Assembly: GCA_963989385.1 (NCBI GenBank)
Contig: OZ022501.1
Coordinates: 940,001-1,004,000 of the forward strand
Length of the DNA stretch: 64,000 nt
Direction of reading: 5' to 3'
Origin: Ctena decussata
Taxonomy: Eukaryota; Mollusca; Bivalvia; Lucinida; Lucinidae
Below, one piece after another: positions 3,421 to 56,522 of this stretch. Within the stretch, counting starts at the first letter, position 1; the number at the start of each line of letters is the position of its first letter. Below the pieces are notes generated by a model. The model saw only the letters and a list, made by a program, of their open reading frames with translations. It did not search any database and had not been told where the DNA came from. Made by a program: the position numbers and the translations under genes.

Positions 3421-4212
3421 TTCATTATGTTCAGTAAGGACAACGATTGTTCGAACAAGGATCATAATCTGAAATACACAGTCAACATTGTAGGAGTCAA
3501 CGTAATGACGTTGAATCAACGTTGATTGAATATTTACTCAACGTCATTTTTTCTAGAACATTACAAATTGAAATTCTTTCAACAGAAAGTTCAGATTGTC
3601 TCAAACAATTGATCATTCTAAAGTCATTTAATTCCGTGTTCTCGTAGTTTAAATGATTTTTCCGCCATTTTTTACAAAATAGACCAGCTTTAGTAATTTC
3701 CTATTTGTTTAACTCATCCTAGAGGAGCAAGGCCTTTCCCATAAGAGCTGACCCCATCCCTCCCCCTCCCACCCCACTTAGAAGGGAGATAAACAACGAA
3801 AATGGCATTGTTACTTCCCATGAAAATGTACCAATCCGTCTTTAGATAGAAGGGTCTTGTCAGCTATGTCGTATCAACGTAGATGCATGGCATCACACTG
3901 ACGATGGTACGACGTCTATTTAAGCGTTGCGTGCCTAAAGGAAATGTGCAAACTCAAAGAAAAAATGGTTCATCTTCAGGAGAAGTAACTCTGCGATTTT
4001 TTTTTTATTTCTGCCCCTTCTCTAATGCGACCAAGTCTTATAAGAAAGAATTAGCTCCTCTGTGAAAGTAGTTCCATTAAGAGTGGAAACATTCTTGGAT
4101 CATTGCCAAAGGAGCAAACAGAAAGTGTCAGAAATGATTCCCTTCGTAAAAATGGTCTGATAGGTATTAGTTAGTCTCATATCTGTTGAACTTATTGACA
4201 AGTCATTATAGT
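3421..4212. other. Noncoding; GTTGAATCAAC fold-back fragment near 3490-3560
   Basis: The only structure is a fold-back fragment at 3490-3560 (ACGTTGAATCAACGTTGA core) of a family seen again at 14485, 28155 and 32546. The sequence from 3988 to 4160 resembles 44160-44345 (shared AAGTAACTCTGCGATTTT-type start and TTCCCTTNGTAAAAATGGT end), another dispersed repeat. No gene is seen. Confidence 0.45.
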
Positions 4213-4380
4213 TTAGTTGATTCTCGTTATCTCAAACACTGGTATCTCAAAGTACACTCTTACTGCCTATCTAAGCATAGATTACAGTTTGGGCACATTT
4301 CATATACATGTTTTCCTTTACATTGCAAATCCTATTATCTCAAACTACATATGGTCTGGCCCAGAAAATTTACTTATACG
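4213..4380. repeat. Tigger-like MITE, degraded copy
   Basis: Shares GATTCTCGTTATCTCAAA, GGTATCTCAAAGTAC and CCCAGAAAATTTAC with the better copies at 23162, 33025 and 51620. It is more diverged and the right end is missing. Confidence 0.5.
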
Positions 4381-4939
4381 ACGGGTGTTCATTAAATAAT
4401 GGAAACACCTTTGCAGACCATTAAACTTTATACACAAACAAGGATACTTCCTGTAACACCAAAGAGTCTTTTTTGAGCTTTCAAATCAATGTTTGAAATT
4501 GGTATTTCAATTTCTTGACATAGCAACATATGACGTCACGTTAATGCTGGGTACGGCGTGTGATTTTTTTACGTCATTTTGTTAAAGAGATTTCCTATTA
4601 TGCTTATTATATAGGATATTTAAAGAGATATCGAAAGTTTAGAAACAGCTTTTGTTAAAGTTAAGCCTTGGCTTCACAAACACACATAAAATGATTGTTT
4701 ATGAAAATATTCTGAAATCTGGTATGAATGAAAGTAAGAATGAGACACCCTTTGAACTGCCTGTCTTCTGGCCATCTGATAAAGAAAGCCATATCAAACT
4801 GACGTTTTCTGAATCCGTATCACTATCCCTTAAAACGAGGCTATGTCTGAGTGCCAGCTTCAGGCGCGTCACTTTTTTAACGTTCATCAACCAGAGAAAC
4901 GGGTCTAGAGACGTAGCGTCAACAAACACGCCAAAAGGC

Positions 4940-5185
4940 GCCTCGATAGCTCAGCCAGTAGCGTTTATCTCACGACTAGCTACATACCTCTGCCTCGCAG
5001 GTTCGAATCCGGGTCGATGCATTAGCGCTGGCAAGTATGAATGTTTGACTGTTCCCTAAGGTACGATATAATAAACAAATTATTATAACAGTGACTTGAT
5101 CTGGGGTACTGTATCACGTCGAGTGGATGAGCCCATGCCATTGGATCACCCTCTACGCAAGTACGCCAGATCAAGTTACTATTGT
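4940..5185 (+). repeat. tRNA-derived SINE with a fold-back tail
   Basis: The head at about 4942-5021 has an A-box-like TAGCTCAGCCAGTAGCG and a B box GGTTCGAATCC. The putative acceptor strands pair at about six of seven positions, but the middle is not a clean anticodon arm. The body ends in an inverted repeat, GTGACTTGATCTGG against CCAGATCAAGTTAC (5090-5181). I read it as a SINE rather than a working tRNA gene. No target duplication was identified. Confidence 0.55.
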
Positions 5186-5747
5186 AATAATGTGCATATA
5201 TCAATATATTGGGTGAAGAACTCTACCGCGGAATAAAAGATTTTTTTGCCAGATTTTGTGCATACGATGCAGACATTTTCCATAGTAAAAGTTACCGTAC
5301 GATCATGTACGTTTTACGGTAAAGGGCCTGGCAGCCAGTTGCAAGGTCTTTCGCCGTAACTCTACGACCTTTTTTAAAGTGTAAAAAAAATCTAGTGTCG
5401 CCTAAAATCCATGCCAAACACTATAGATAACGTTTTAATAATGCATAGCGGAAGCCGGAAGCTAAGATATCAATCTTAATAGCACGAAGTAATTTTCTTT
5501 AAATATAGCATATTATATACATTTGTACTGTGACCTCAAGGTCTAAGCTAAAATATATATGACAGTCAGTCATAGTATTCTGAGATTGAATATCTGTTCT
5601 GTCGAGATGCTTACAGTTCTGAACCCAGCCTCCTCGTCAATTTCATTTTCATCTTTAGGCTAAAGCCTGTTGAAGAGTTCTTAAGCATGACTCTGTTCGG
5701 ATGACTGATAAGGCTGATGGTTCTGTAGTTCTGGCGGGCTGAGAGAA

Positions 5748-6237: not shown

Positions 6238-7831
6238 TTTGTAAAAATATGCTTTATAAAAATGGATAACTTAAGCTTCGTTCACACAAAGCAAAGTTTC
6301 TTTGTCATAGAAACTTTAGCAAAGAAAGTTTGCTAAATATTTTGCATTCACACGGAGCGAATTATTTGTGACAGAAAAACTTAAAGAATCTTTGTCAAAT
6401 AAACGTTGGCAATGAAATATTTGCTTCAGTGTTCATATGAACAAAGTGTTTTCGCTAAAGTTACCTGGACAAATAAATATTTCCAGTGTAAACGGCCAAC
6501 TATACCATATTTTCTTTGTTAAGGTGGTGATTTGTGGTACTTGTATATACAAAAATCTGAATAAAACTATAAAAATTATCGTTTCTGCCTGATCGTTAGC
6601 AGATTTCTTATTTTTGTTGTTCTCTACAGTATGAAATACAAAATATAGGGATATGCTGTTTAAAAACGTGTTTTTTATATGGAAAGATCAAAGAGTAATT
6701 TTCTGCGCATGAAAGATATTGACAGGTAACTTATCAGCGAAATTTCCATTTACAACGCGGTTTTCGGCATCGGAGAGAGACATGAATGTAGTTTATCTGT
6801 ATAATTCTCATTATCCCATACAACGATTCAGTATTTGTGTATACAACATCATGTGCTGCTGAATCAGTGATTTTGTTTCTTCTGTCGCCCGTCACCACGG
6901 TGAATCCAGGTTGCTATAGCCACACGAACTGCATAATTTCTGCAAATGCCAATTTAAAATCTTCGAGTAACATTTATTCTTTGATATCATGTAGCTTCTT
7001 GTGTCCAGGTGTTTGGATTCTTCAGACCATGGCGTGTTGAATCGCACCCATTAGTTTCGAATGACTGTCCGACTAGCGACAAATTGGAAAAATTCTGATG
7101 TCCGCCTAGCGACGATTTTTTGCAGTGTTTCATCGTAGAGCAGATGTACAGTAAAAATGTTGTTCAATGGATTTGATGTATATGAGAATATGAGAACGAG
7201 GAATGACGTTGATTTTATACAGTGGAAATAAATGGTGAATGTTACGTGAGAGTATGCGATAGTTGTGAGACAGTAAATGTGGCTTGCAGAGGGATGCTCG
7301 TTGCTTTCCGAGACCTGCCCATCACCCCTTTTCTTTCAAACGTTTGGGGTTTAGCGACACTGCAGAAGTTACATTGGGAAATGCGCGTCCGTCGCTCTAA
7401 ATTTGGTAGGGATACGTGTACGTATATATTATTCTTTATTATTTCTGTATTCTTTACACTGCAACGTTGAATGTAGACAAACATTTTGTTAACGTTGAAA
7501 AAACTCCGTTGTTGTTTAGACTCATGTCATGTGGAATTGCTTCTAATAACAGATTAGATCGGACCATATACCCCCCGCACACACACACGCACACACACAC
7601 ACAAGAAAAAAAAACAACGCAATGTAGCACAAGTGGACCATATATCCGGTTCTTTCTCTGACCCTTCCTCTAATTCCCTTCCCTTATTGTGTGTGCGAAC
7701 AGTGAACGGCCTTCTGCTGATGCAAATACTCACCTGAGCTTTAGCTGGTCACATGTGATGAGTATCATTTTTACACGAGCTGATGTGACCTTAAATATTG
7801 ACCCTTGTGGAATAATGACCCTCTTATCTGA

Positions 7832-8084
7832 CTGATTGATTGATTTGATGCTTTACGCCCACGGTAATCAGCTATGGTCATGTCGGGACGGTCCCACACT
7901 ATTCCTGGACAGACTTAGACCGCCTAAGCGGTTAACAGTACTAAGTGCACATACTTTCGCCAGTAACTGACAACTACCCTTCTGGAATCAGCGGAGGGAG
8001 AAACGAAAGTATGTGGCCAGACCGGGTTTCGAACCCAGGACCTCTGACTTATGAGTCAGGTGCCCTACCGATTGCGCTACACGG
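7832..8084 (-). mobile_element. tRNA-derived SINE with 13-base target duplication
   Basis: The minus strand starts with a tRNA-like head (A box TAGCGCAATCGG, loop CTCATAA, B box GGTTCGAAACCC), resembling an elongator Met tRNA. The body has a CATACTTTCG/CGAAAGTATG stem, and the tail is CAAATCAATCAATCAG. Direct repeats CCCTCTTATCTGA at 7819-7831 and 8085-8097 flank it, which is the hallmark of retroposition. A second copy is at 52671-52944. It lies inside the 6.5-kb transposon, so it inserted later. Confidence 0.8.
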
Positions 8085-8322
8085 CCCTCTTATCTGAAGT
8101 AAACGTTGAAAAACGTTAACAACTCTGTGTCATTTTAATGTTGATAAGTGACCCACTGGTAGGTACATGTATATAGCTTCGGGTCAGTAGTCAATGTTGT
8201 TCACTCACCTAAGGGTCAATATTTTACGGGGTGGGGCAACATTTAATGTAACACCGGCTCAAATGTTAAAACTAAAGCACATGAACATATCTTAACGTGC
8301 CCATATCCCCTTTCAGTTCAGA

Positions 8323-18198: not shown

Positions 18199-19345
18199 TT
18201 AACTAGTAAAACGTTTTGTATTTTTGATATACTGGTGCACGTGACCGAAGAAGATAACATTATCTTTTTCGGAAAATGCATCAGAACCATATAATATGAA
18301 ACGAACTCCTAGAGGATGAAATTTTCTAGTCGCGCGAAATAAGGTCACTCTTTCATTACTATACCTTTCACATCTAAAGAAATAATGTTCAGCATCTTCA
18401 ATACTGATCCCACAGTCACAAAGAGGAGAATCTTTTAGATGGTTTTGATAAAGGTCATTGTTAAGGTTGCTACATTTGTTCCTTATTCGACAGTGGAATA
18501 CAGATTCAGTTCTCTTACCCTGGATGAAGAATTTGGGAATTTGCGGAGAAATATAAATATGCTGTTTTAGTTTAAGTTTAAATGAATTCACTGAAGTTTC
18601 AGATCGAATTTCAAGAGGTAAATTGTTCCACAAGAGTGTACCAGAAGGAATAAAAGATTTTGCAAATAATTCAGTTCTTCTATTCATAATACTTATATTT
18701 TCGGCGTTTCTTAAGTTGTAAACAGTTCTTTCAGTAACAAGAGGAGGCAACAGGCTACACAGATATTCCGGGGCAGTACCATTAAAAATTTTATACATGG
18801 TAACTAACTTCTGAAACTGACGACGGTCAGACAAAGGTAGCCACCCGATTTCGCTCATTAAGTTGTCTATTGAAACTGAGCGGGTTAACCCGGTGACTAT
18901 TCGAGCAGCTTCATATTGAAATCGTTCAAGTCGTTCTTTCTCATACATTGTGCAGCCATCCCATACGATAGATGCGTACTCGACCAGAGGCCTCAAGTAT
19001 GAAAAATAAAGCTGATTCAGTGTTTTACGATTTAGCTTAAACTTCAAACTTCGCATAACTCCTAACATTTTTGCAGCAGACGTTAAAATATTGTTGATAT
19101 GGGTATGCCATTTACCATCATGACTGAGAGTAAGTCCTAAATGTTTATGATCATCTACAAAATTAACAGGAACTTGATCAAAGAAAAGTTTTGGATTATT
19201 TACATTAGTAGTACAAAATAAAATAGCTTCTGTTTTGTTTGGGTTGAAATCTACTAACCACTGTTTTGCCCAAACTGTAATAATTCTCAAGTCATGATTC
19301 AGGATTCCTTCAATATCATGTATATTAGGTGATGTGAACGATAAG
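18199..19345 (-). pseudogene. LINE ORF2, 3' part (end of RT and C-terminal knuckle)
   Basis: Continues ORF2 in another frame after the break at about 19343-19345. It contains the RT thumb region (AKQWLVDFNPNKTEA, HLGLTLSHDGKWHTHI), the typical YFSYLRPLVEYASIVWD-type block and a C-terminal knuckle (LCDCGISIEDAEHYFFRC) common in CR1-like proteins. The frame is open for over 360 codons with no further stop, so the break looks recent. Loss of one T in a short T run is enough to explain it. Alternatives are a sequencing error at the run, or programmed frameshifting; neither can be decided here. Confidence 0.8.
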
Positions 19346-21545
19346 ATGTATCATCAGCAAAGAGACGACTTATGCTTACCAAATGTTCCACGATATCATT
19401 TACATAGATCAAAAATAGCAAAGGCCCAAGTACAGAACCTTGTGGAACCCCTGCAGATAACATTTTAGAGTCTGACATTGATGACCCTACAAAGACTTTT
19501 TGACTTCTTTCGGAAAGATAGTCTGAAATCCATTTTAAAAGATCCCCTTTAATACCATTTTGTTCTAATTTAAAAAGAAGGCCTTTATGCCATACCCTGT
19601 CAAAGGCTTTTGATATATCACAAAAGACCATGCATGTATACTGTTTAGAGTCAAAACTTTGACAAATTTGATTATAGATGTCAATAAGTTGGAATACTGA
19701 GGAATGGCCTGGTAAAAATCCAGACTGCAATTTAAAGATAAGATTGTTACTGTTAAAAAAGTTAAATAAGTGTTTGTAAACAACTCGTTCCATTAATTTC
19801 CCAACTGTGCTAATCAATGAAATTGGTCTATAATTAGAGGGTGTATCCGATGACCCTTTTTTAAATAAAGGCATTACAATGGCCTCTTTCCATAGGGACG
19901 GAAATGTACATTCAGCAAGAGATTTATTTATCAAAATATGTAAAGGTTTGACAACAGTTTCGCAAGTCATTTTAAGCATTTTATGACTGATCAGATCATG
20001 ACCACAGGCCTTATTTACTTCAAGAACTCTAATAATGTCTTTAATTTCCGACTCTTCTATGTGAATATTATCTAAAGAATTAGCTGTTTTTGGAACGAAA
20101 TTAGGGAGTTCAGTATTAGCTTCATTAATATTAGAAATTGATTCGAAATAGTCATTTAACGTGTTAGCTTTTTCAAGATCTGAAAAAGAGTAAACTTCTT
20201 CTCCAGAATCAGAAATAGTTTTAAGTGGCGGTATTACTTCAGCACCTTTATTTGATTTTACAAAATATTTAACGAGTTTCCAGTACTGTTTTGGATTAGT
20301 ATTCTTTGCTTCAATAATAGTCGTTTCAATATTGTTATAAAACTGTTCTTTTGCATGAGTTTTTAAATTATTAACTTTATTTCTTATTTTCTTATAATTT
20401 TGCCAATCGTGGTTACTACCAGATTTTGCAGCCTTATTTCTTAACCTATCACGTTTTCTTGAAGCAGTTCTTATCTCAGAATCATACCAAGGTTTGTCGT
20501 TTGGTCTTATGGTAACTTCTTTGCAGGGTATACATTCTTTAGCGAGATTTATGAACTTTGAGGTGAAATTTTCACAAGCATTGTCTACACTATCGTTTTT
20601 AAGAAATTCCCAATCTGTAGATGAAATTAATCTATTAAACTTACAGAAGTCACCTTTTTTATACTGCCAAACGACACGCTTAAAAGCTGTAGAATGATTA
20701 TAGGTAAATGGTAGAAAGACATATGTTGCTGAGTGGTCACTTATATCAGCTGGTATACTAAGAATGCCAGAATCCAATACTTTGAGTGTTTCGGAAAGAA
20801 CCACAGGATCTAGAAGAGTTTGGGAAGTATTGGTTACTCGAGTTGGTACATTTATGATATTAACAAGGTTATTTAACATAATTACATCTTTCAAATTGTG
20901 ATTACGCGGATTTAGTTGATCTTCATTCAAATCTCCAACTATAATGATATTTTTAGAAATTTCCGATGCTCTTTCGATAGTTATGTTCAGTCGTTGCCAA
21001 AAATTAATTGGTGTGTTTGGAGGTCTATATATATCACAAAGTAAATATGACTCACCTCTATGTTTAATTTCAATCCATATTGATTCATCCAAATTAGCTT
21101 CCAAGTCAGTTAGTCGATCTGCAGATAAACCTTCTGAAACATAAACTAATAGGCCCGAAGAGTGGGCCGAGACATCTTTTCTGAAAGGTATAGATTGAAA
21201 CCCTCCTAAACATAAGTCAGTATTTGGAACATTATCACTTAAATGAGTTTCTGTAAAACAAAGAATATCAAAATCTGACAAGCTATCTCTGACATAGTCT
21301 AATTTGTTTCTAATACTGCGAATATTTAAATGAAGTATTGATAAGTTGTTGGTTTGATTGCTCAGATCAGCGTCTGGACCAGGATTTTCACTAACATCAC
21401 CGGACAAAATAATTAAATATAGTATTACATATAAAATACTTGAAGTACTAATATTTACAGTCGCAATTGTATCCAGACAATTATGTTTAAGACTATTATC
21501 CATTAAGAAGTTTACCCTTTTTACCTTTAAGAGAGTAATGTCCAT
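19299..21545 (-). CDS. LINE ORF2, 5' part: 2A-like leader, endonuclease, reverse transcriptase
   Basis: Starts at a true ATG. Residues 33-48 are hydrophobic, followed by a 2A-like motif, LSGDVSENPGP (residues 47-57). The APE-type endonuclease spans roughly 68-290, with the catalytic signatures LHLN74, TE99TH, DIYRPP, GDLNED and SDHSA. After a lysine/arginine-rich linker comes the RT: NYRPISLIS, FCDISKAFD, AGVPQGSVLGPLLF and LFADD. The enzyme would nick target DNA and copy its own RNA at the nick. The frame leaves the correct path a few codons after FADD, so this copy should not give a full-length product unless the break is bypassed. The rest continues at 18199-19345. Confidence 0.88.
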   Translation of the reverse strand: MDITLLKVKRVNFLMDNSLKHNCLDTIATVNISTSSILYVILYLIILSGDVSENPGPDADLSNQTNNLSILHLNIRSIRNKLDYVRDSLSDFDILCFTETHLSDNVPNTDLCLGGFQSIPFRKDVSAHSSGLLVYVSEGLSADRLTDLEANLDESIWIEIKHRGESYLLCDIYRPPNTPINFWQRLNITIERASEISKNIIIVGDLNEDQLNPRNHNLKDVIMLNNLVNIINVPTRVTNTSQTLLDPVVLSETLKVLDSGILSIPADISDHSATYVFLPFTYNHSTAFKRVVWQYKKGDFCKFNRLISSTDWEFLKNDSVDNACENFTSKFINLAKECIPCKEVTIRPNDKPWYDSEIRTASRKRDRLRNKAAKSGSNHDWQNYKKIRNKVNNLKTHAKEQFYNNIETTIIEAKNTNPKQYWKLVKYFVKSNKGAEVIPPLKTISDSGEEVYSFSDLEKANTLNDYFESISNINEANTELPNFVPKTANSLDNIHIEESEIKDIIRVLEVNKACGHDLISHKMLKMTCETVVKPLHILINKSLAECTFPSLWKEAIVMPLFKKGSSDTPSNYRPISLISTVGKLMERVVYKHLFNFFNSNNLIFKLQSGFLPGHSSVFQLIDIYNQICQSFDSKQYTCMVFCDISKAFDRVWHKGLLFKLEQNGIKGDLLKWISDYLSERSQKVFVGSSMSDSKMLSAGVPQGSVLGPLLFLIYVNDIVEHLVSISRLFADDTSYRSHHLIYMILKES
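21375..21401 (-). other. 2A-like ribosome-skipping motif in LINE ORF2
   Basis: Encodes GDVSENPGP. The canonical form is D(V/I)ExNPGP; here S precedes E, so the acidic residue sits one place later than usual. The NPGP core is intact. 2A-like motifs near the N-terminus of ORF2 are known from some APE-type non-LTR elements in invertebrates, where they split the leader from the enzyme or alter its targeting. Whether this variant is active is unknown. Confidence 0.7.
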
Positions 21546-21560
21546 AGTGAGAAAAAAGAC

Positions 21561-25929: not shown

Positions 25930-26789
25930 ATGTATGATAACGGTTTTGACAGTGTGTAATGCCACAATACGGATATATACCGTTATAATCTCAGTAAAGT
26001 TTTGTCACAAATGGCCTAAAATGGCCTCCGGGCTGAGTTGTATATTTTCAAATACTTACGAATGTGTAAATATATACTTATAGATATTCACATAAAATTC
26101 ACATAAAATGCTCTTTTTGATATGAAATACCGCATCAATAACTACTATAATTTCTATAAAGTTACCTTTTGGTAATTTTAAGTCCACAAATCAGAAAATC
26201 CTGAAAATGCACAATCGGTGAAGTGAAGTTCACAAAGGAGTCAAATGTAAACAATGGAATAAGAGAAAGTTTTCCATATAAAACCACAGAAAGTTACAAG
26301 TGAGGTTTTAGCATCATATTCGATCTCCCAAACATATCACACTATCATCAGTAAGAGAAAGTTAATGATTTTACTCCATATAGATATAATTTCCTACGAA
26401 TTAACTAGAGCGATCTTACACACGACTATCGGCTAAACGCGCCATTGCATACTGGAGCAAAAGAAGGCCACCAGTTGAACCCCGGTGGGCCAAGAAACAG
26501 ACAAACATCCGGCCCCAACCAACTAATATATAGCTTTATGTAGGGGCTATCATAGAGTCTGAACCCCGACCCACCGGCGTGCAATTAAAGAGGACAGCAA
26601 AGTTGTCAACCGTGATTGGGTTAACCACTAAGCATGCAGACTGTCGCATTACATTAATGTTATAGCCAATGCGTTTAAATCGCATGATAGTTTTCTTAAA
26701 TTGATCGGGAAATTCTGTTTTCCCTACGATTTTGCGTAATTTATATACTAAGTCACCATAAAATTCAGGTTCAAGCCATTTTGCAACAT
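25930..26789. other. Noncoding
   Basis: Just upstream of the ORF1-type gene, so part may be its 5' untranslated region. I recognise nothing else. Confidence 0.4.
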
Positions 26790-44439: not shown

Positions 44440-44715
44440 GAGTCCAGGGAGTAGGTCGATTTTGATACAGAATTTGTTTATATCAATCATGGTCCAGCTC
44501 CAGATCCAGGGGTGAGGTTTGCGGCTTCAGCCCCGCCATTTGTGCTTCTTTGTTATTTATAATATGAAGGCTTCCAGTTAATAATAAGTATCTGATGACA
44601 GCTTGAGATAATTTATCCATATGGTTTGATTAAAATATATGTTGTGACATCTCAATAGAATTGCCTCAGCAATAATGAGATATCACAACATATATAATGA
44701 GATATCACAACATAT

Positions 44716-44930
44716 TGTTAAACATGTGCTCACCTTTATAGCGCTCCGGTCCCGACGAACGACTAGGTCTGTTCAGGTCAAGAGCTGGTGGTGGAGTGAG
44801 AGCGAGTCCCTCGTGCGGAACTCGCACGTGACCTATCTCCGGTGATTTCCGTCTGTCGTCGGGGAATCGCCTGGCGATGTTCGGAAGACCTCTTGATGGT
44901 ATGAAGGATCACCGAAGTAGGCTCACAACA
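44716..44930 (-). repeat. 3' LTR of the TatD-carrying element
   Basis: On the minus strand it begins TGTTGTGAGCC and ends ATGTTTAACA. It appears identical to the copy at 47217-47431. Near its end is AAAGGTGAGC, a good splice-donor match. Confidence 0.9.
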
Positions 44931-44945
44931 CTCTCCCCCTTCTTT
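44931..44945 (-). promoter_or_regulatory. Polypurine tract
   Basis: AAAGAAGGGGGAGAG on the minus strand, directly abutting the 3' LTR. It is the expected primer site for plus-strand DNA synthesis. Confidence 0.85.
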
Positions 44946-46655
44946 GAAGACTGGATCCACGAGTGGTGAAATATTAGTATTTTAGTATGTGTGGAAAGTT
45001 CAAAGGTTAGTAGAGAAAAGTTATCCTTAAAGTGTTGGTCTTTTATGATATTAAATAATTATGCCCCTTAAGTGCTATGCAAGTTGAGTTGAAGCAGTAC
45101 CTTAAGCTGATGTCAAAGAAATTTAGAGCTGATATGATTTTCTTTCTTAAGAAATGACTAGATTAAAGAAATGACTAGACTAGACTATGCAGAAATATGT
45201 AAATGGACATTGTGTAGTAAATATTACTAAGAAATTGATTAGTGGAACACTTGCCACTAAATATTTGGTATTTACATAGTGGTGTACTTGCCACAAAACT
45301 TTATATGAGTGGAAACCTTGCCACTAATAATTTTATCCATTCAGTGGAACATTCGCCACCTAGATATGTATATATAAATTTAAATAAAATAACGAAAACA
45401 AGGACTCTAAGTAAACTGAATGAATACAAAAATATGTATAGTCGCTACATGCATGCTGCCAGGCAGGGAATGGCTACAAAGTAATGGGACGGACCATTCA
45501 CATAAGTCAAGGTATATTCTGAGGGCTCGATGACTACAATGCAGCAACTAAATAGCTAAATAAACATAAACCAAAATGCATGTGAAATCAACACACTGGA
45601 AGAAAGTGCACTAATATAAACCAAAGAATAAAACAATTCTCCAGAGATCAGAACCACATTACTCAAACTATTTGCAAAAAATCATAATACTTATTTAATG
45701 GCAGCATATATAGCATTTCTTGTATAAATGCAAATGTAAAATGTCCACGCCTAATAAGCTTAAGCTTTGGCTTAGTAAAGCTGGCAAGCATAAATTTTGT
45801 ATATATGGCAAGTACAAGCTTAGTGTATATAAAACTGGACTAGTGGCAAAAGCTGTAACCATATTAATGCATTAGTATTCATTTTCCCATAAACAGCTGG
45901 TAAGTTAAATACATATATCGGATACACATGATAACTTCCACCATCTGGAAGGTTATCTGCAGAGAGTGGTAGACTGTATAATTACTATATTTATTCCATT
46001 CCAATGCAGAGGCTCTAATATTTTATAAACAGCATGGTATAACTGATCTCTGGAAAACCAAACAAAAGCTCTAAATCTAAGAAAGACTACGCAGCTACAG
46101 AAACGTGCTGTAACTTACATTTTCCAAAGGTTCTGTATCTGTAAGAATGATAGAGAATATTTTAGCATTTTCGAAATTTGTTGTAAAATATATTGCTATG
46201 CCATATGTTCTCACTTGACTGACATCGGACACCAGCAATGAAAACATACAAGCTAGCCACTACTGGTTAAAATGCTTCACAGTCTTGTGAGAGTAATCCA
46301 AACGGATTGACAAACTAAGCATACAGCTATTGACATAAAAATAGTGTAAAACAGCTATTCTCAGAATGACAACATACAAGCTATTCACTCTTTGAACAGC
46401 ATCATTGTGTGTGTTATACTAAAATGACAAAATCTAGAATAACATTAGAACCACTGTACTGACAACATACAAGCTATTCAACAAGTAGATCAACATTTTT
46501 CTAGAATTGAATTACTAGTAGCTAGTTACTAGAAGCAAAATGAGAATTTAGAATTTGGAATTTGCCCGAGATATGGGGTACTACAAAATGGTGTATCCTA
46601 AATGGCGAATAAGCCCACATCATACAGCAACGGACAGTTCGTTAATAAGGGCGGA
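44946..46655. other. Noncoding interior of the LTR element
   Basis: No gag-pol homology. Local repeats: GTGG(A/T)...CTTGCCACTAA-type blocks at 45241-45360 (about four) and TGACAACATACAAGCTATTC-type blocks at 46236-46490 (about four). Possibly packaging or untranslated sequence. Confidence 0.6.
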
Positions 46656-47234
46656 CTACCAGGCTAAGTTGTACAACCTGGCAGCATTTTTGTTGCACAC
46701 CCTAATGAGCTCACTGGTGGTCATTCCAAAATAATGAGCTACCCCTTCTGCAATATCATAGATGCCCATGGGTTCATCTGCCAAATAAGGGGAATCTGTC
46801 TCCAGAATCAAGCGATCTGGTTTCTCAAGTAACAGTAACCAAGCTATAGTTCTACTGTCTTTAAGTGATGCAGAAGAAATGCTAAAATAACAATTTGGGA
46901 GAGAGGTGCTCCATTCCCTATATTCCTCCTCTCCCCCTACAAAACAATGACGATGGATCCTTGTATTCGAAAGATCACATTCAAGGAGTAGAGATAATAC
47001 TTCCTTAGCCGCTTTACCAGTACCTTTGTCTCGGACATGTATAACCAAAACTTTGTCAAGCCGTTTAGCTAACTGGAAAGTGAGACGTAGGAATTGGCGC
47101 TGGGCATCGACTTTGTCTTGAAAACAACGATTTGTGTTGTGCGTTTGACGACAACGACATGTTGTAGTAAGATCAAGGCCCACTTCGCCAATTCCAACCC
47201 TGCTCGCAGCGCCAGTTGTTAAACATGTGCTCAC
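46656..47234 (-). CDS. TatD-family nuclease, C-terminal two thirds, in an LTR element
   Basis: 192 open codons without an ATG near the start; the frame opens inside the LTR and crosses the primer site. Four metal-binding signatures of TatD hydrolases are present: GIGEVGLD (E17), VIHVRDKG (H66), HRHCFVGG (H96) and LILETDSPYL (D147), and the end LIRVCNKNAARLYNLAW is also typical. TatD proteins are metal-dependent DNases with a TIM-barrel, usually 260-300 residues in this family, more in TATDN2-type proteins. About 80-90 N-terminal residues, with the HxH metal pair, are missing. The homology starts almost exactly at the primer site, as if a host cDNA had been joined there. Initiation could be non-ATG or via splicing; otherwise it is a captured fragment. 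The lack of stops argues that it is young or selected. The HCFVGG form suggests TATDN2-like ancestry. Confidence 0.82.
   Translation of the reverse strand: MSTCLTTGAASRVGIGEVGLDLTTTCRCRQTHNTNRCFQDKVDAQRQFLRLTFQLAKRLDKVLVIHVRDKGTGKAAKEVLSLLLECDLSNTRIHRHCFVGGEEEYREWSTSLPNCYFSISSASLKDSRTIAWLLLLEKPDRLILETDSPYLADEPMGIYDIAEGVAHYFGMTTSELIRVCNKNAARLYNLAW
47197..47214 (-). promoter_or_regulatory. Primer binding site, tRNA-Ser-like
   Basis: TGGCGCTGCGAGCAGGGT on the minus strand, two bases after the 5' LTR. It fits the 3' end of a serine tRNA ending in CAGCG plus CCA. This fixes the element's orientation as minus, the same as the nuclease frame. Confidence 0.78.
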
Positions 47235-47431
47235 CTTTATAGCGCTCCGGTCCCGACGAACGACTAGGTCTGTTCAGGTCAAGAGCTGGTGGTGGAGTGA
47301 GAGCGAGTCCCTCGTGCGGAACTCGCACGTGACCTATCTCCGGTGATTTCCGTCTGTCGTCGGGGAATCGCCTGGCGATGTTCGGAAGACCTCTTGATGG
47401 TATGAAGGATCACCGAAGTAGGCTCACAACA
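47217..47431 (-). repeat. 5' LTR of the TatD-carrying element
   Basis: 215 bases, partner of 44716-44930. It contains a CACGTG motif within ACTCGCACGTGACC on the plus strand, and on the minus strand TATAAAGGTGAGC near its 3' end. Confidence 0.9.
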
Positions 47432-47853
47432 ATATATAACGAGATATCACAACATATATTTCAAGGCAAAAACAACATTATCAAAAATTCTCATCAAACT
47501 GACCCACAATTGTCATACATTTTCACCACGGCAGCCCCAGCCCAACCAGTTATCCAGAGCCCCACCAGTACGTTTTTCTGGATCTGGGCCTGTGGTCTCC
47601 TCACCTGCTCGAACAAATTCAGTTGTTATGCAGAATTCCCCTTTTCGAAAGCTGCCACTGAAATTTGCAATTCATTCTATGGTTCTCTGAACTCATGAAT
47701 TATGAAACTTCTGTAATCGACTTCCCCAAGTTTCATTTGCACATCTTAAATTATGAACAGGTTTCCCTTAACCAAGGCAGGGGAGGTAATCCTGATAAAA
47801 ATTCTGTCTGTAATAAAGAGCTTACTTTACTCTGATCAATCACAAGGATTGTC

Positions 47854-52659: not shown

Positions 52660-52670
52660 GATGGACAGAC

Positions 52671-52944
52671 TGACTGATTGATTTGATGCTTAATGTCCAC
52701 AGTAAACAGCTATGGTCATGTCGGGACGGTCAGTTAACCTAACCACACTATTCCTGGGCAGGCTTTGACCTCCTAAGCGGTTAACCAGTACTAAGTGTAC
52801 ATACTTTCGCCAGTAACTGACAACTGCCCTTCTTGAATCAGCGGAAGGAGAAACGAAAGTATGTGGCCAGACCGGGTTTCGAACCCAGGACCTCTGACTT
52901 ATGAGTCAGGTGCCCTACCAATTGCCCTACGCGGCCCGGCCACG
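52671..52944 (-). mobile_element. tRNA-derived SINE, second copy
   Basis: Same family as 7832-8084: loop CTCATAA, B box GGTTTCGAACCC on the complement, and the CATACTTTCG/CGAAAGTATG stem. Flanked by GATGGACAGAC at 52660-52670 and 52945-52955. Confidence 0.8.
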
Positions 52945-54127: not shown

Positions 54128-56522
54128 CACAGTGTATAAGCGGACAGTCACCAAATCGGAAGCGACAATTGACTGTACACCCGAAAATCATTAGTGACAC
54201 ATAAACAACTTGTGAGGTGAATCGGTAAAAAGCAGGTAAGTCCTTATCGAATCTGTTCTTTTAGATGCGGTTTTCAACATCGGGGAGAGAATTAGATGTA
54301 CTTCATCTGTAGCATTGTCAGTTTGACATATCACCACCCAATCTCTGTGTAAAAATCAAGTTTTCCTGCTTAATCACCAGTTTTGCTTTATTTTCTGTCG
54401 ATCGACACGGACAATCGGGGTTAAAAAGACTCGAATTATGGCATCATTTCTGTTAAAACCAACATAAAATCATCGCTAGACCTTTATCCTGTGATATCCA
54501 ATAGCTGAATCCGTCGAAACATTACTTAAAACAAATATATTGCCTCCTGAATCGCACACGTTCGTCTCATTCGACTGTCCGACTAGTGACAAAAACAAAA
54601 AATGGTGTTGAACGACTAGCGACGATTTTCTTGTAAGTCTTATTGAGCAGAAAATGTGTTAGCTTATGTATTCTTTACTGAAATATAACGACAACGGAGG
54701 GTAAGAATATCTACTGGATTGAGTTTGTTTCAGAAGTCCAGTATGCTGTTTATATCTACTATAAATTTGAACAGATTAGCATGGCAAGCTCAATGATTCA
54801 TTCGTAAGATTCGAAATAAATTGAAAATACTGAGAGTGTTTCTGAATTTTTCTGTGTAAAGAAAATGAATATTGAATTTTGAATGTGTTTTTCAACAGGC
54901 GAAACTAATTACAATGGTCAGACTTGCAGCTTAAAAGATATGAAAACTTATTTTACAAACGGCACAATATTGTCACCTAGATCTACATTGATACCCTATA
55001 CTACCCTTCTACATCCTCTTTGCTCTCCCTAACCTAAATTACAATGTAGGACGAGGGCGTGTGCTTGTATCAGGTGCGTAATGTGGGGGTTGTTCTAGTT
55101 TTTTGTGTGCTTTTTTTTGTGTGTGTTTTTTTTTTATTCACGTCTATCCTATCTGTCTTTCCTAATTCCCCATCTTTTGGGAAACAGCTTAACGTGCCCA
55201 CAGAAATATACCTGAATATGTGCGGTTATAACCAACGGTACTTGTCATTTACTGTTGTCGGAGAACTTACCTGTTATTCGTTTCACTTGCTTAGATAGTC
55301 TAAGCTTGTATATGAACAGTTAACTGGCTCATCATGACCTTAACTGTGCACCGGACCGCTAACCCAAACAAAGAAACAAACTCCCCATTTCTACCCCACC
55401 AGCCTCGCCCTGCCCTACCCTAAGCCTACCATTTAGCTTTACACTAACTAACTAATGAATCACCCAATCAGACCGAAACTACCCAGGACCGAAACGATCC
55501 GAGTTCCTTTACAAAAACAAGAAAGGTATAGATCCGAGAACAGAACCCTAGTATACACCTACAACGTCATGAACTTTGTTCTCTGTATCTTGATTATTTG
55601 TAATCTTAGTTGTTTCCAACTATGGTTTGAGGGCTGGATTTGGATTTTGATTGTTTCAGTTCCTGGTCTTTGCATACTTTTTACTTTTGTAGAATTAGCC
55701 ATTCAATATAACGCTGCTTAAATACTACCGAATTTCTGAAAATGCTTAAATGCTAATGCAGGCATCATTAAATAACGTGTATTCTTTTTATTTCATTTTT
55801 TTGTGTGTGTGTGTGGGGGGGGGGGGGCATTTTTATTACTTTTTGTGATATTGTATTTGTTTACCCATCTTTTCTTTCTTTCAGCAATGCTTGATAGCCT
55901 TCTCCCCAAATGATGATCCCAGTGAAAGCATCCAAAACGATATTTTTATTACCTTTTTCAAGCATTTGTTGAAAATGATCGTCATGAATGTGAAAATACA
56001 ATCACTACTAGTCGGACAGTTTTTGTTTCTTGATATGTCGCTAATGATTAGGTACAGTTGTCACTAGTCGGACAGTCGAATGAGACGAACGTGTGCGATT
56101 CAGGAGGCAATATATTTGTTTTAAGTAATGTTTCGATGGATTCAGCTATTGGAAATCACAGGATAAAGGTGTAGCGATGATTTTATGTTGGTTTTAACAG
56201 AAATGATGCCATAATTCGAGTGTTTTTAACCCCGATTGTCCATGTCGATCGACAGAAAATAAAGCAAAACTGGTGATTAAGCAGGAAAACTTGATTTTTA
56301 CACAGAGATTGGGTGGTGATATGTCAAACTGACAATGCTACAGGTGAAGTACATCTAATTCTCTCCCCGATGTTGAAAACCGCATCTAAAAGAACAGATT
56401 CGATAAGGACTTACCTGCTTTTTACCGGTTCACCTCACAAGTTGTTTATGTGTCACTAATGATTTTCGGGTGTACAGTCAATTGTCGCTTCCGATTTGGT
56501 GACTGTCCGCTTATACACTGTG
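54128..56522. mobile_element. DNA transposon with CACAGTG ends, 463-base inverted repeats, 5-base target duplication
   Basis: Terminal inverted repeats 54128-54590 and 56060-56522 are the same length and nearly identical by eye. The ends are CACAGTGTATAAGCGGAC and its complement. TGAAT lies at 54123-54127 and 56523-56527. A heptamer-like CACAGTG end with a 5-base duplication is the pattern of the Transib/RAG group, but no nonamer-like block is evident and the repeats are long for Transib. Subterminal CTAGTCGGACAG motifs repeat inside. The 1.47-kb middle has no transposase that I can recognise. An acceptor-like TTTTCTTTCTTTCAG is at 55871-55885. Probably non-autonomous. A relative lies at 6705-8987. 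Confidence 0.82.
54591..56059. other. Interior of the CACAGTG transposon
   Basis: Short frames only. An 88-residue plus-strand frame at 55455-55721 has two hydrophobic stretches (NFVLCILIICNLSCF, WIWILIVSVPGLCILF), but no homology that I can name. A G run is at 55815-55827. Confidence 0.4.

Follow-up and report, generated by a model that had tools for sequence, protein, structure and literature searches.

A 2716-bp LTR element of Ctena decussata as a probable internal-deletion copy of a TatD-bearing Ty3/gypsy retrotransposon family

The window element and its parent family

We examined a 64,000-nt stretch of the genome of the bivalve Ctena decussata (contig OZ022501.1, positions 940,001 to 1,004,000 of the forward strand; hereafter, the window), which contains a 2716-bp long terminal repeat (LTR) element on its minus strand (44716-47431). 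With a probability of about 0.92, this element derives by internal deletion from a 12-kb Ty3/gypsy family that bears a gene for a TatD nuclease, and the deletion likely took place during reverse transcription, at the second strand transfer. From the deletion junction onward, the interior of the window element was 99.78% identical over 2268 nt to the 3' part of a full-length copy with the same LTRs, C8, the two sequences differing at 2 of 540 coding positions and at 3 of the 1725 positions aligned in the non-coding 3' region and polypurine tract; we therefore read it as an internal-deletion derivative. Descent from another deleted copy, C9b, was rejected, as the window element differed from C9b at 32 positions versus 5 from C8.

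The 5' LTR (47217..47431) and the 3' LTR (44716..44930) are both 215 bp long and match at 215/215 positions; they start with TGTTGTGAGC, end with TTTAACA and thus have TG...CA termini. The target-site duplication ATAT is present once on each flank (44712-44715 and 47432-47435). An AC spacer separates the 5' LTR from the primer binding site TGGCGCTGCGAGCAGGGTT (47214-47196), in which all 19 nt are complementary to the 3' end of host tRNA-Ser(UGA), including CCA. The deletion junction (47196..47198) is a GTT common to the tRNA-derived end and the parent TatD (GAGGCTGTT|GGAATTGG). It is followed by the TatD remnant (46656..47198), made of the 3' 180 codons (47198-46659) and the stop codon (46658-46656), by the non-coding 3' region of the parent element (44950..46655, from the alignment to C8) and, directly before the 3' LTR, by the polypurine tract CTTCAAAGAAGGGGGAGAG (44931..44949), which is common to the family copies that we read, with C8 differing at one base. 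A preliminary description of this DNA had named the LTRs, target duplications, primer site and polypurine tract and their minus orientation correctly, and it was also right in proposing a recent insertion. The element lies in an AT-rich inverted-repeat sequence (44630-44722 and 47432-47464, arms 82-92% complementary), which is perhaps a small transposon itself.

The longest frame of the window element has 205 codons from stop to stop and is its sole long frame; none of 5000 first-order Markov sequences with the same composition had an open frame of 540 nt. The frame survey of the interior detected no gag-pol frames, as had been described before, and the small frames of the 3' region gave no Pfam match above the cut-offs. 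The window element is a non-autonomous Ty3/gypsy derivative.

We searched the 1.66-Gb assembly (245 contigs) with the window LTR and scored 40 of 118 first-look candidates, all 40 of which were 99-100% identical to it, so that other copies with this LTR do exist. Fifteen LTR pairs were read, around interiors of differing length, and 13 of them had perfect 4-bp target duplications, those of C12 and C9a being off by one base. Four copies (C8, C10, C1b and C1c) spanned 11.6-12.1 kb and a fifth (C6) 15.9 kb. In C8, the one copy annotated in full, a gag of 787 codons is followed by a pol in the Ty3/gypsy order (protease, reverse transcriptase, RNase H, integrase), then by about 1.6 kb in which no frame reaches 150 codons, a TatD frame of 464 codons and 1.7 kb of non-coding sequence. 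With gag, pol and an intact TatD, C8 is a candidate for the autonomous partner with the same LTR ends that the preliminary description had envisaged. The other four showed frames of similar size and place, with an interrupted pol in C10, a gag that is not open in C6 and a TatD ending in a frameshift in C1c.

The preliminary description took TatD to be a host gene captured by the element. A single accidental event, in which template switching brought part of a host TatD mRNA into the element, would agree with the uninterrupted TatD of the window copy, which begins directly at the primer site. However, full-length copies with the same LTRs carry gag, pol and, after pol, a complete TatD, and the window element continues into 1.7 kb of their non-coding sequence with the few differences to C8 given above. 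The C8-like interior and the position of TatD after pol rule out a fresh capture, and the accidental pick-up is hardly credible.

The family also includes further deleted copies. C3 is another derivative, with a longer TatD remnant. In C9b (L016), 163 bp of pol in inverted orientation connect gag to TatD; sequence is shared at the joins, and the join at TatD has 11 nt in common with antisense pol. Finally, a group of mostly ~4-kb derivatives (L009, L010, L011, L013, L014, L015 and L017) combined near-identical LTRs with a partial gag, tandem repeats of ~60 bp and broken remnants of TatD; these copies were apparently mobilised in trans.

The deletion junction and copies of the primer tRNA

ARAGORN identified host tRNA-Ser(TGA) genes at two loci (L065 and L067), ending in AACCCTGCTCGCAGCG. 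The 3' end of this tRNA had seven matches in the genome: these two genes, three matches adjoining a window-type LTR (L066, L031 and L068) and two adjoining other LTR-like ends (L069 and L070). Measured against the L067 gene plus CCA, the complementarity that follows the LTR was only 8-11 nt in 12 copies with a normal leader (C11b, C4, C17, C12, C9a, C9b, C1a, C8, C10, C1b, C1c and C6), versus 18 nt in the deleted copy C11a, 19 nt in the window element and C3, and 53 nt in L066. L031, whose TatD is intact, and L068 matched the L067 gene over 33 nt and then diverged in the variable arm; L031 continued with the variable arm of the L065 gene and reached the same end in the anticodon loop. In the window element and C3 the tRNA sequence joins the interior of TatD, and in C11a it joins the leader at GGGT.

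The copied sequence ended at A59/A58 in the 18-19 nt copies and at U33 in the 53-nt copy, C32 being the first uncopied base. Plus-strand strong-stop synthesis of HIV-1 halts at m1A58, a modification stated for primer tRNAs including tRNA-Ser in the accessible part of PMC13191261, and human tRNA-Ser carries m3C32 according to the part of PMC11233606 available to us. By analogy, the host tRNA-Ser of this animal would likewise be modified at A58 and C32. In the mechanism that we propose, plus-strand DNA ending in tRNA-copied sequence that cannot pair would join downstream by short homology, and the deletion of the window element would have arisen in this way at the second strand transfer, with the join inside TatD. 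Some deleted copies would then be fossils of aberrant second strand transfer, and their ends at A58/A59 and beside C32 would show where the reverse transcriptase stopped on the primer tRNA.

Splicing of the genomic RNA or recombination at the DNA level might also remove the interior, and 11 of the 15 copies read have a splice-donor-like GG|GTAAGT in the leader. Either process would, however, leave a normal primer site and leader, and what lies left of the window junction is 19 nt of tRNA complement instead of the 8-11 nt of the 12 normal-leader copies; moreover, tRNA copies of at least 33 nt are held by L031, L066 and L068, also with the window-type LTR. The 19-nt complement at the junction rules out splicing as the source of the window deletion, and we regard the two processes together as very improbable.

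Two further observations concern the tRNA copies. In L068 (C14:77679900-77680500), the copy has a repeat of 16 nt from the variable arm, as if the polymerase had slipped on the tRNA hairpin. In L069 (C13:77752060-77752240) and L070 (C17:44923930-44924110), a tRNA-Ser copy of ~53-57 nt lies beside LTR-like ends of different sequence; thus, long tRNA copying is not confined to the window family.

TatD in the window copy, in full-length relatives and across the lineage

Of the 253 positions of the Pfam profile PF01026, the window remnant matched only 86-253 (E 7e-28). The preliminary description had reported an uninterrupted frame of about 190 codons for a TatD nuclease with four metal-binding signatures; the frame is indeed open and its sequence is TatD, but it has 180 codons of a partial domain, and the HxH and HP motifs are missing. 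The start codon, zinc finger, helical domain and barrel strands 1-3 are also absent, and the earliest ATG lies only 37 codons ahead of the frame end. As the N-terminal part is missing and the first ATG comes too late, no expressible or functional TatD enzyme is predicted from the window copy; the partial domain, late ATG and missing HxH led us to reject a functional TatD there.

The TatD of C8 contains the complete PF01026 (1-253) within its 464-codon frame, in the order zinc-finger, helical region and TatD domain; the N-terminal zinc-finger-like and helical region had no Pfam match. For a full-length relative (P0064), the AlphaFold model had a mean pLDDT (predicted local distance difference test) of 87 and its top Foldseek matches were the TatD structures 6l25, 2gzx and 2y1h; the window fragment begins at residue 255 of this model, which corresponds to the modelled fourth barrel strand. 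The complete domain, the ligand motifs and, by the P0064 model, the TatD fold are thus present in full-length copies, with single motifs missing in a few. The metal-ligand check took in 23 TatD frames besides the window: three motifs were missed in L038 and one in L050, both with frames that end early, and a frame of group G (below) missed the HP pattern as defined, reading GMHPN.

Clusters of zinc-finger TatD proteins reached 206 member sequences in the protein collection, as would be expected of a multicopy gene, and the relatives included P0103 of Ruditapes philippinarum. Another relative, P0002 (76% identical), is filed under lucinid-clam symbionts and is probably host DNA inside a symbiont assembly.

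A genome search with P0064, in which 97 of 201 candidates were scored, gave 100 TatD matches. Based on identity, they formed the groups A (87-93%), B (~60-64%), C (~50-55%), D (a single match, 35%) and G (29-36%); group G, with frames of up to 886 codons, matched P0064 in the TatD part only. The preliminary description had considered that TatD frames might be full of stops in most copies, and the opposite was found: among the 27 matches that spanned 400 or more of the 434 residues, 22 had no internal stop (A 9/10, B 8/10, C 4/6 and D 1/1), relatives with other LTRs included.

We also searched the genome with the reverse transcriptase (RT) of C8 (114 matches scored of 4264 candidates) and paired each RT with a TatD on the same strand within 8 kb downstream, using all 114 RT rows and 81 of the 100 TatD rows, the other 19 being second pieces of listed places. 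TatD was found downstream of 20 of the 23 RTs with at least 75% identity to the C8 RT, of 15 of the 24 RTs with 45-53% identity that aligned from query residue 1-2, and of 0 of the remaining 67 distant scored RTs; the distant RTs were split by alignment start (residue 1-2 versus at least 3) after the list had been seen. Conversely, a listed RT lay upstream of 35 of the 81 TatD places, with a chance expectation of ~0.0003 per TatD. Identities to the queries, RT/TatD, were 98-100%/89-91% for linked pairs of A, 82-85%/62-63% for B, 75-81%/52-59% for C and like copies, and 48-52%/29-36% for G. The two genes thus fall in step, as expected if they descended together.

Single copies of these families gave the same picture. 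A family B copy on C10 has gag, pol (with one stop and one frame break) and a TatD at 63% beside them, together with a 239-bp LTR-like direct repeat that is 99.6% identical, and a family C copy on C11 has pol upstream of TatD. A single G frame was read; it has 844 codons, with PF01026 as its last part, and in hhalign (99.7%, 407 columns) its zinc finger, helical region and TatD all aligned with those of family A and relatives. TatD is therefore a long-term resident of this gypsy lineage. By sequence, a single acquisition before A-C and G separated fits these data; transfer of TatD between element lineages may be another history.

Five RTs 52-53% identical to that of C8 had no listed TatD nearby (C1:89072040, C11:47761585, C9:80297744, C14:4871111 and C4:74464454), in which TatD was either lost or too diverged for the search, and for an RT at C7:52810177 TatD lay ~16 kb downstream. 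The group D frame (L061, C15:5444500-5450000, at 3895-5364) is a zinc-finger TatD frame of 490 codons with no stops, ~33-35% identical to its best matches and with no pol-like frame in the 3.8 kb upstream; it may represent either the domestication of such an element's gene by the host or an old, isolated remnant.

The ratio of nonsynonymous to synonymous divergence (dN/dS; NG86, mean dN over mean dS) was 0.16-0.37 within families, namely 0.27 for A (9 copies, 36 pairs), 0.37 for B (7 copies, 21 pairs) and 0.16 for C (3 copies, 3 pairs). These sets include L037, with a frameshifted end, and L050, whose frame ends early; 6 of the 27 loci were left out because no start was recognised (L043, L045, L049, L054, L055 and L058), three of which (L043, L045 and L058) were free of stops in the P0064 search. 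Between families, with dS near saturation, dN/dS was 0.29/1.60 for A vs B and 0.40/2.09 for A vs C; a 5' pol piece gave 0.19/2.05 for A vs B. Among nine copies, divergence was 0.73% in the 3' TatD coding sequence vs 1.28% in the 3' non-coding sequence.

The TatD of full-length copies looks as if it were made from an mRNA spliced as that of env: a leader donor GG|GTAAGT would be joined to an acceptor AG|GATG at the start codon. The donor-like GCGCGG|GTAAGT was present in the leader of 11 of the 15 copies with the window-type LTR, and the leader of a family B copy had AAAG|GTAAGT shortly after the primer site. Among the 27 loci examined, AGG|ATG preceded by a pyrimidine-rich stretch occurred at all 21 recognised TatD starts of A, B and C, and G had TTTCAG five bases ahead of the ATG.

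Several observations weigh against the account given so far. The Retrotrans_gag and protease matches of C8 are both below the curated cut-offs of Pfam. The homology at the junctions is short (3 nt, GTT, in the window; 0-1 nt, T, in C3; 4 nt in C11a) and weak alone, the tRNA sequence at the junctions being the strong part of the deletion evidence. C9b breaks at the same TatD base as the window element, via a different event, and in C9b and the other ~4-kb copies the deletion lies elsewhere and the primer site is a normal one of 9-11 nt; misplaced transfer therefore accounts for only some of the deletions. The ~4-kb derivatives have spread despite lacking any long pol or TatD frame, which shows that TatD is dispensable in cis. 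No listed TatD lay within 8 kb of 3 of the 23 close RTs and 9 of the 24 deeper-class RTs, and upstream of 46 of the 81 TatD places no RT was listed, although these places include many fragments and RT scoring covered just 114 of 4264 candidates; in class G, the link between TatD and RT consists of coordinates, with one G TatD frame read. Two B copies (L046 and L048) lack the HxHCF motif, and smaller first sets without minus-strand loci gave dN/dS values of 0.44 for A (5 copies) and 0.41 for B (6 copies). Finally, the splicing and expression of TatD are predictions from sequence.

Possible roles of TatD, related systems and other features of the window

Our leading guess, by analogy with E. coli TatD and human TATDN2, is that the TatD of these elements would trim or clear nucleic-acid ends while reverse transcription proceeds, namely the 3' ends of single-stranded DNA or RNA that serve those two enzymes as substrates. 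A more specific version, which we put forward as rather doubtful, is that a mollusc Ty3/gypsy clade already had its own zinc-finger TatD, a 3'-5' exonuclease, before its families split and has retained it, and that the enzyme trims the tRNA-copied overhang of the plus-strand strong-stop DNA. Since primer sites match over 8-11 nt and synthesis runs to A58 or C32, untrimmed ends would then mis-prime and leave deleted copies.

The main rival to a trimming role is that TatD acts outside reverse transcription, against the host or competitors, e.g. on small RNAs or R-loops. In the accessible part of PMC12709183, TATDN2 is described as a 3' exonuclease and endonuclease of RNA that acts on R-loops and is expressed in the germ cells of fish, and we consider such action on host RNAs a real possibility, at somewhat less than even odds. 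TatD may instead be a passenger, long kept in the elements without doing anything for them; this would suit the spread of the ~4-kb derivatives without TatD. The low dN/dS within and between families, the conservation of the ligands and the absence of TatD beside the 67 other scored gypsy RTs speak against it, and we judge it unlikely.

In the literature that we searched, which mostly excluded subscription papers and preprints, we found no description of a TatD within a retrotransposon, and TatD did not occur in a paper on bivalve transposons (PMC10294476). The closest known system is that of the bdelloid rotifer LTR retrotransposons Juno and Vesta, which, in the accessible part of PMC5408684, carry a DEDDy exonuclease or a GDSL esterase as a third open reading frame (ORF3). 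Like them, the elements described here have an extra enzymatic frame after pol, inside the LTRs and in several copies; the DEDDy elements share with ours a nuclease ORF3 of family-specific presence, to whose class that paper attributes 3'-5' action on single-stranded DNA and on RNA. In contrast, the nuclease found here is TatD by domain and fold, not DEDDy, and belongs to a different phylum, and the bdelloid ORFs showed, in that same part of PMC5408684, no significant departure from neutrality intragenomically, whereas our ratios were 0.16-0.37. Given the low dN/dS and the clade-wide linkage to pol, a second, unrelated nuclease family would join the ORF3 repertoire of LTR retrotransposons, and the role of ORF3 nucleases becomes testable.

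The Steamer and Steamer-like Ty3/gypsy elements of bivalves also have short LTRs (177-187 bp) and, in Steamer, a short primer site of 12 bp, but they differ in length (4.8 kb in M. chilensis) and in their tRNA-Leu or tRNA-Asn primer sites, according to the available parts of PMC8905726 and PMC11046912; TatD does not occur in PMC8905726. By the predictions made here, the full-length copies would resemble E. coli TatD and human TATDN1-3 in the full PF01026, ligand motifs and fold, and they differ in the extra N-terminal zinc-finger-like and helical region and in being present in many copies, on a retrotransposon. Non-autonomous LTR elements of the LARD/TRIM type have LTRs, a primer site and a polypurine tract without gag-pol. 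Unlike for them, the parent family was identified here and primer tRNA sequence lies at the deletion junction.

Multicopy 'TATDN2' or 'TatD-like' annotations in mollusc genomes may be retrotransposon genes. A 'TATDN2' gene is reported beside transposon-like genes in the Hox cluster of the giant squid (PMC6962438, accessible part), and it may be such an element. Scans of viral contigs with the LTR pattern and TatD found no copy, a TatD pattern scan of genome contigs gave 21 stretches, none of which was confirmed, and a plasmid search returned 29 bacterial records, the best among the matches listed having 30.7% identity.

The window also contains features apart from the element. Two 465-bp inverted repeats (54128-54592 and 56058-56522), 98.5% identical and ~1.5 kb apart, are likely a recent DNA transposon or foldback element. 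A SECIS_1 element at 26498-26561 on the minus strand (Rfam, 43.6 bits) probably marks a nearby selenoprotein gene. A tRNA-like Rfam match (8014-8086, minus strand) lies inside a repeat present at 7830-8087 and 52668-52937, which is probably a tRNA-derived short interspersed element. Finally, a non-LTR retrotransposon frame with endonuclease and RT domains was found at 19302-21560 on the minus strand.

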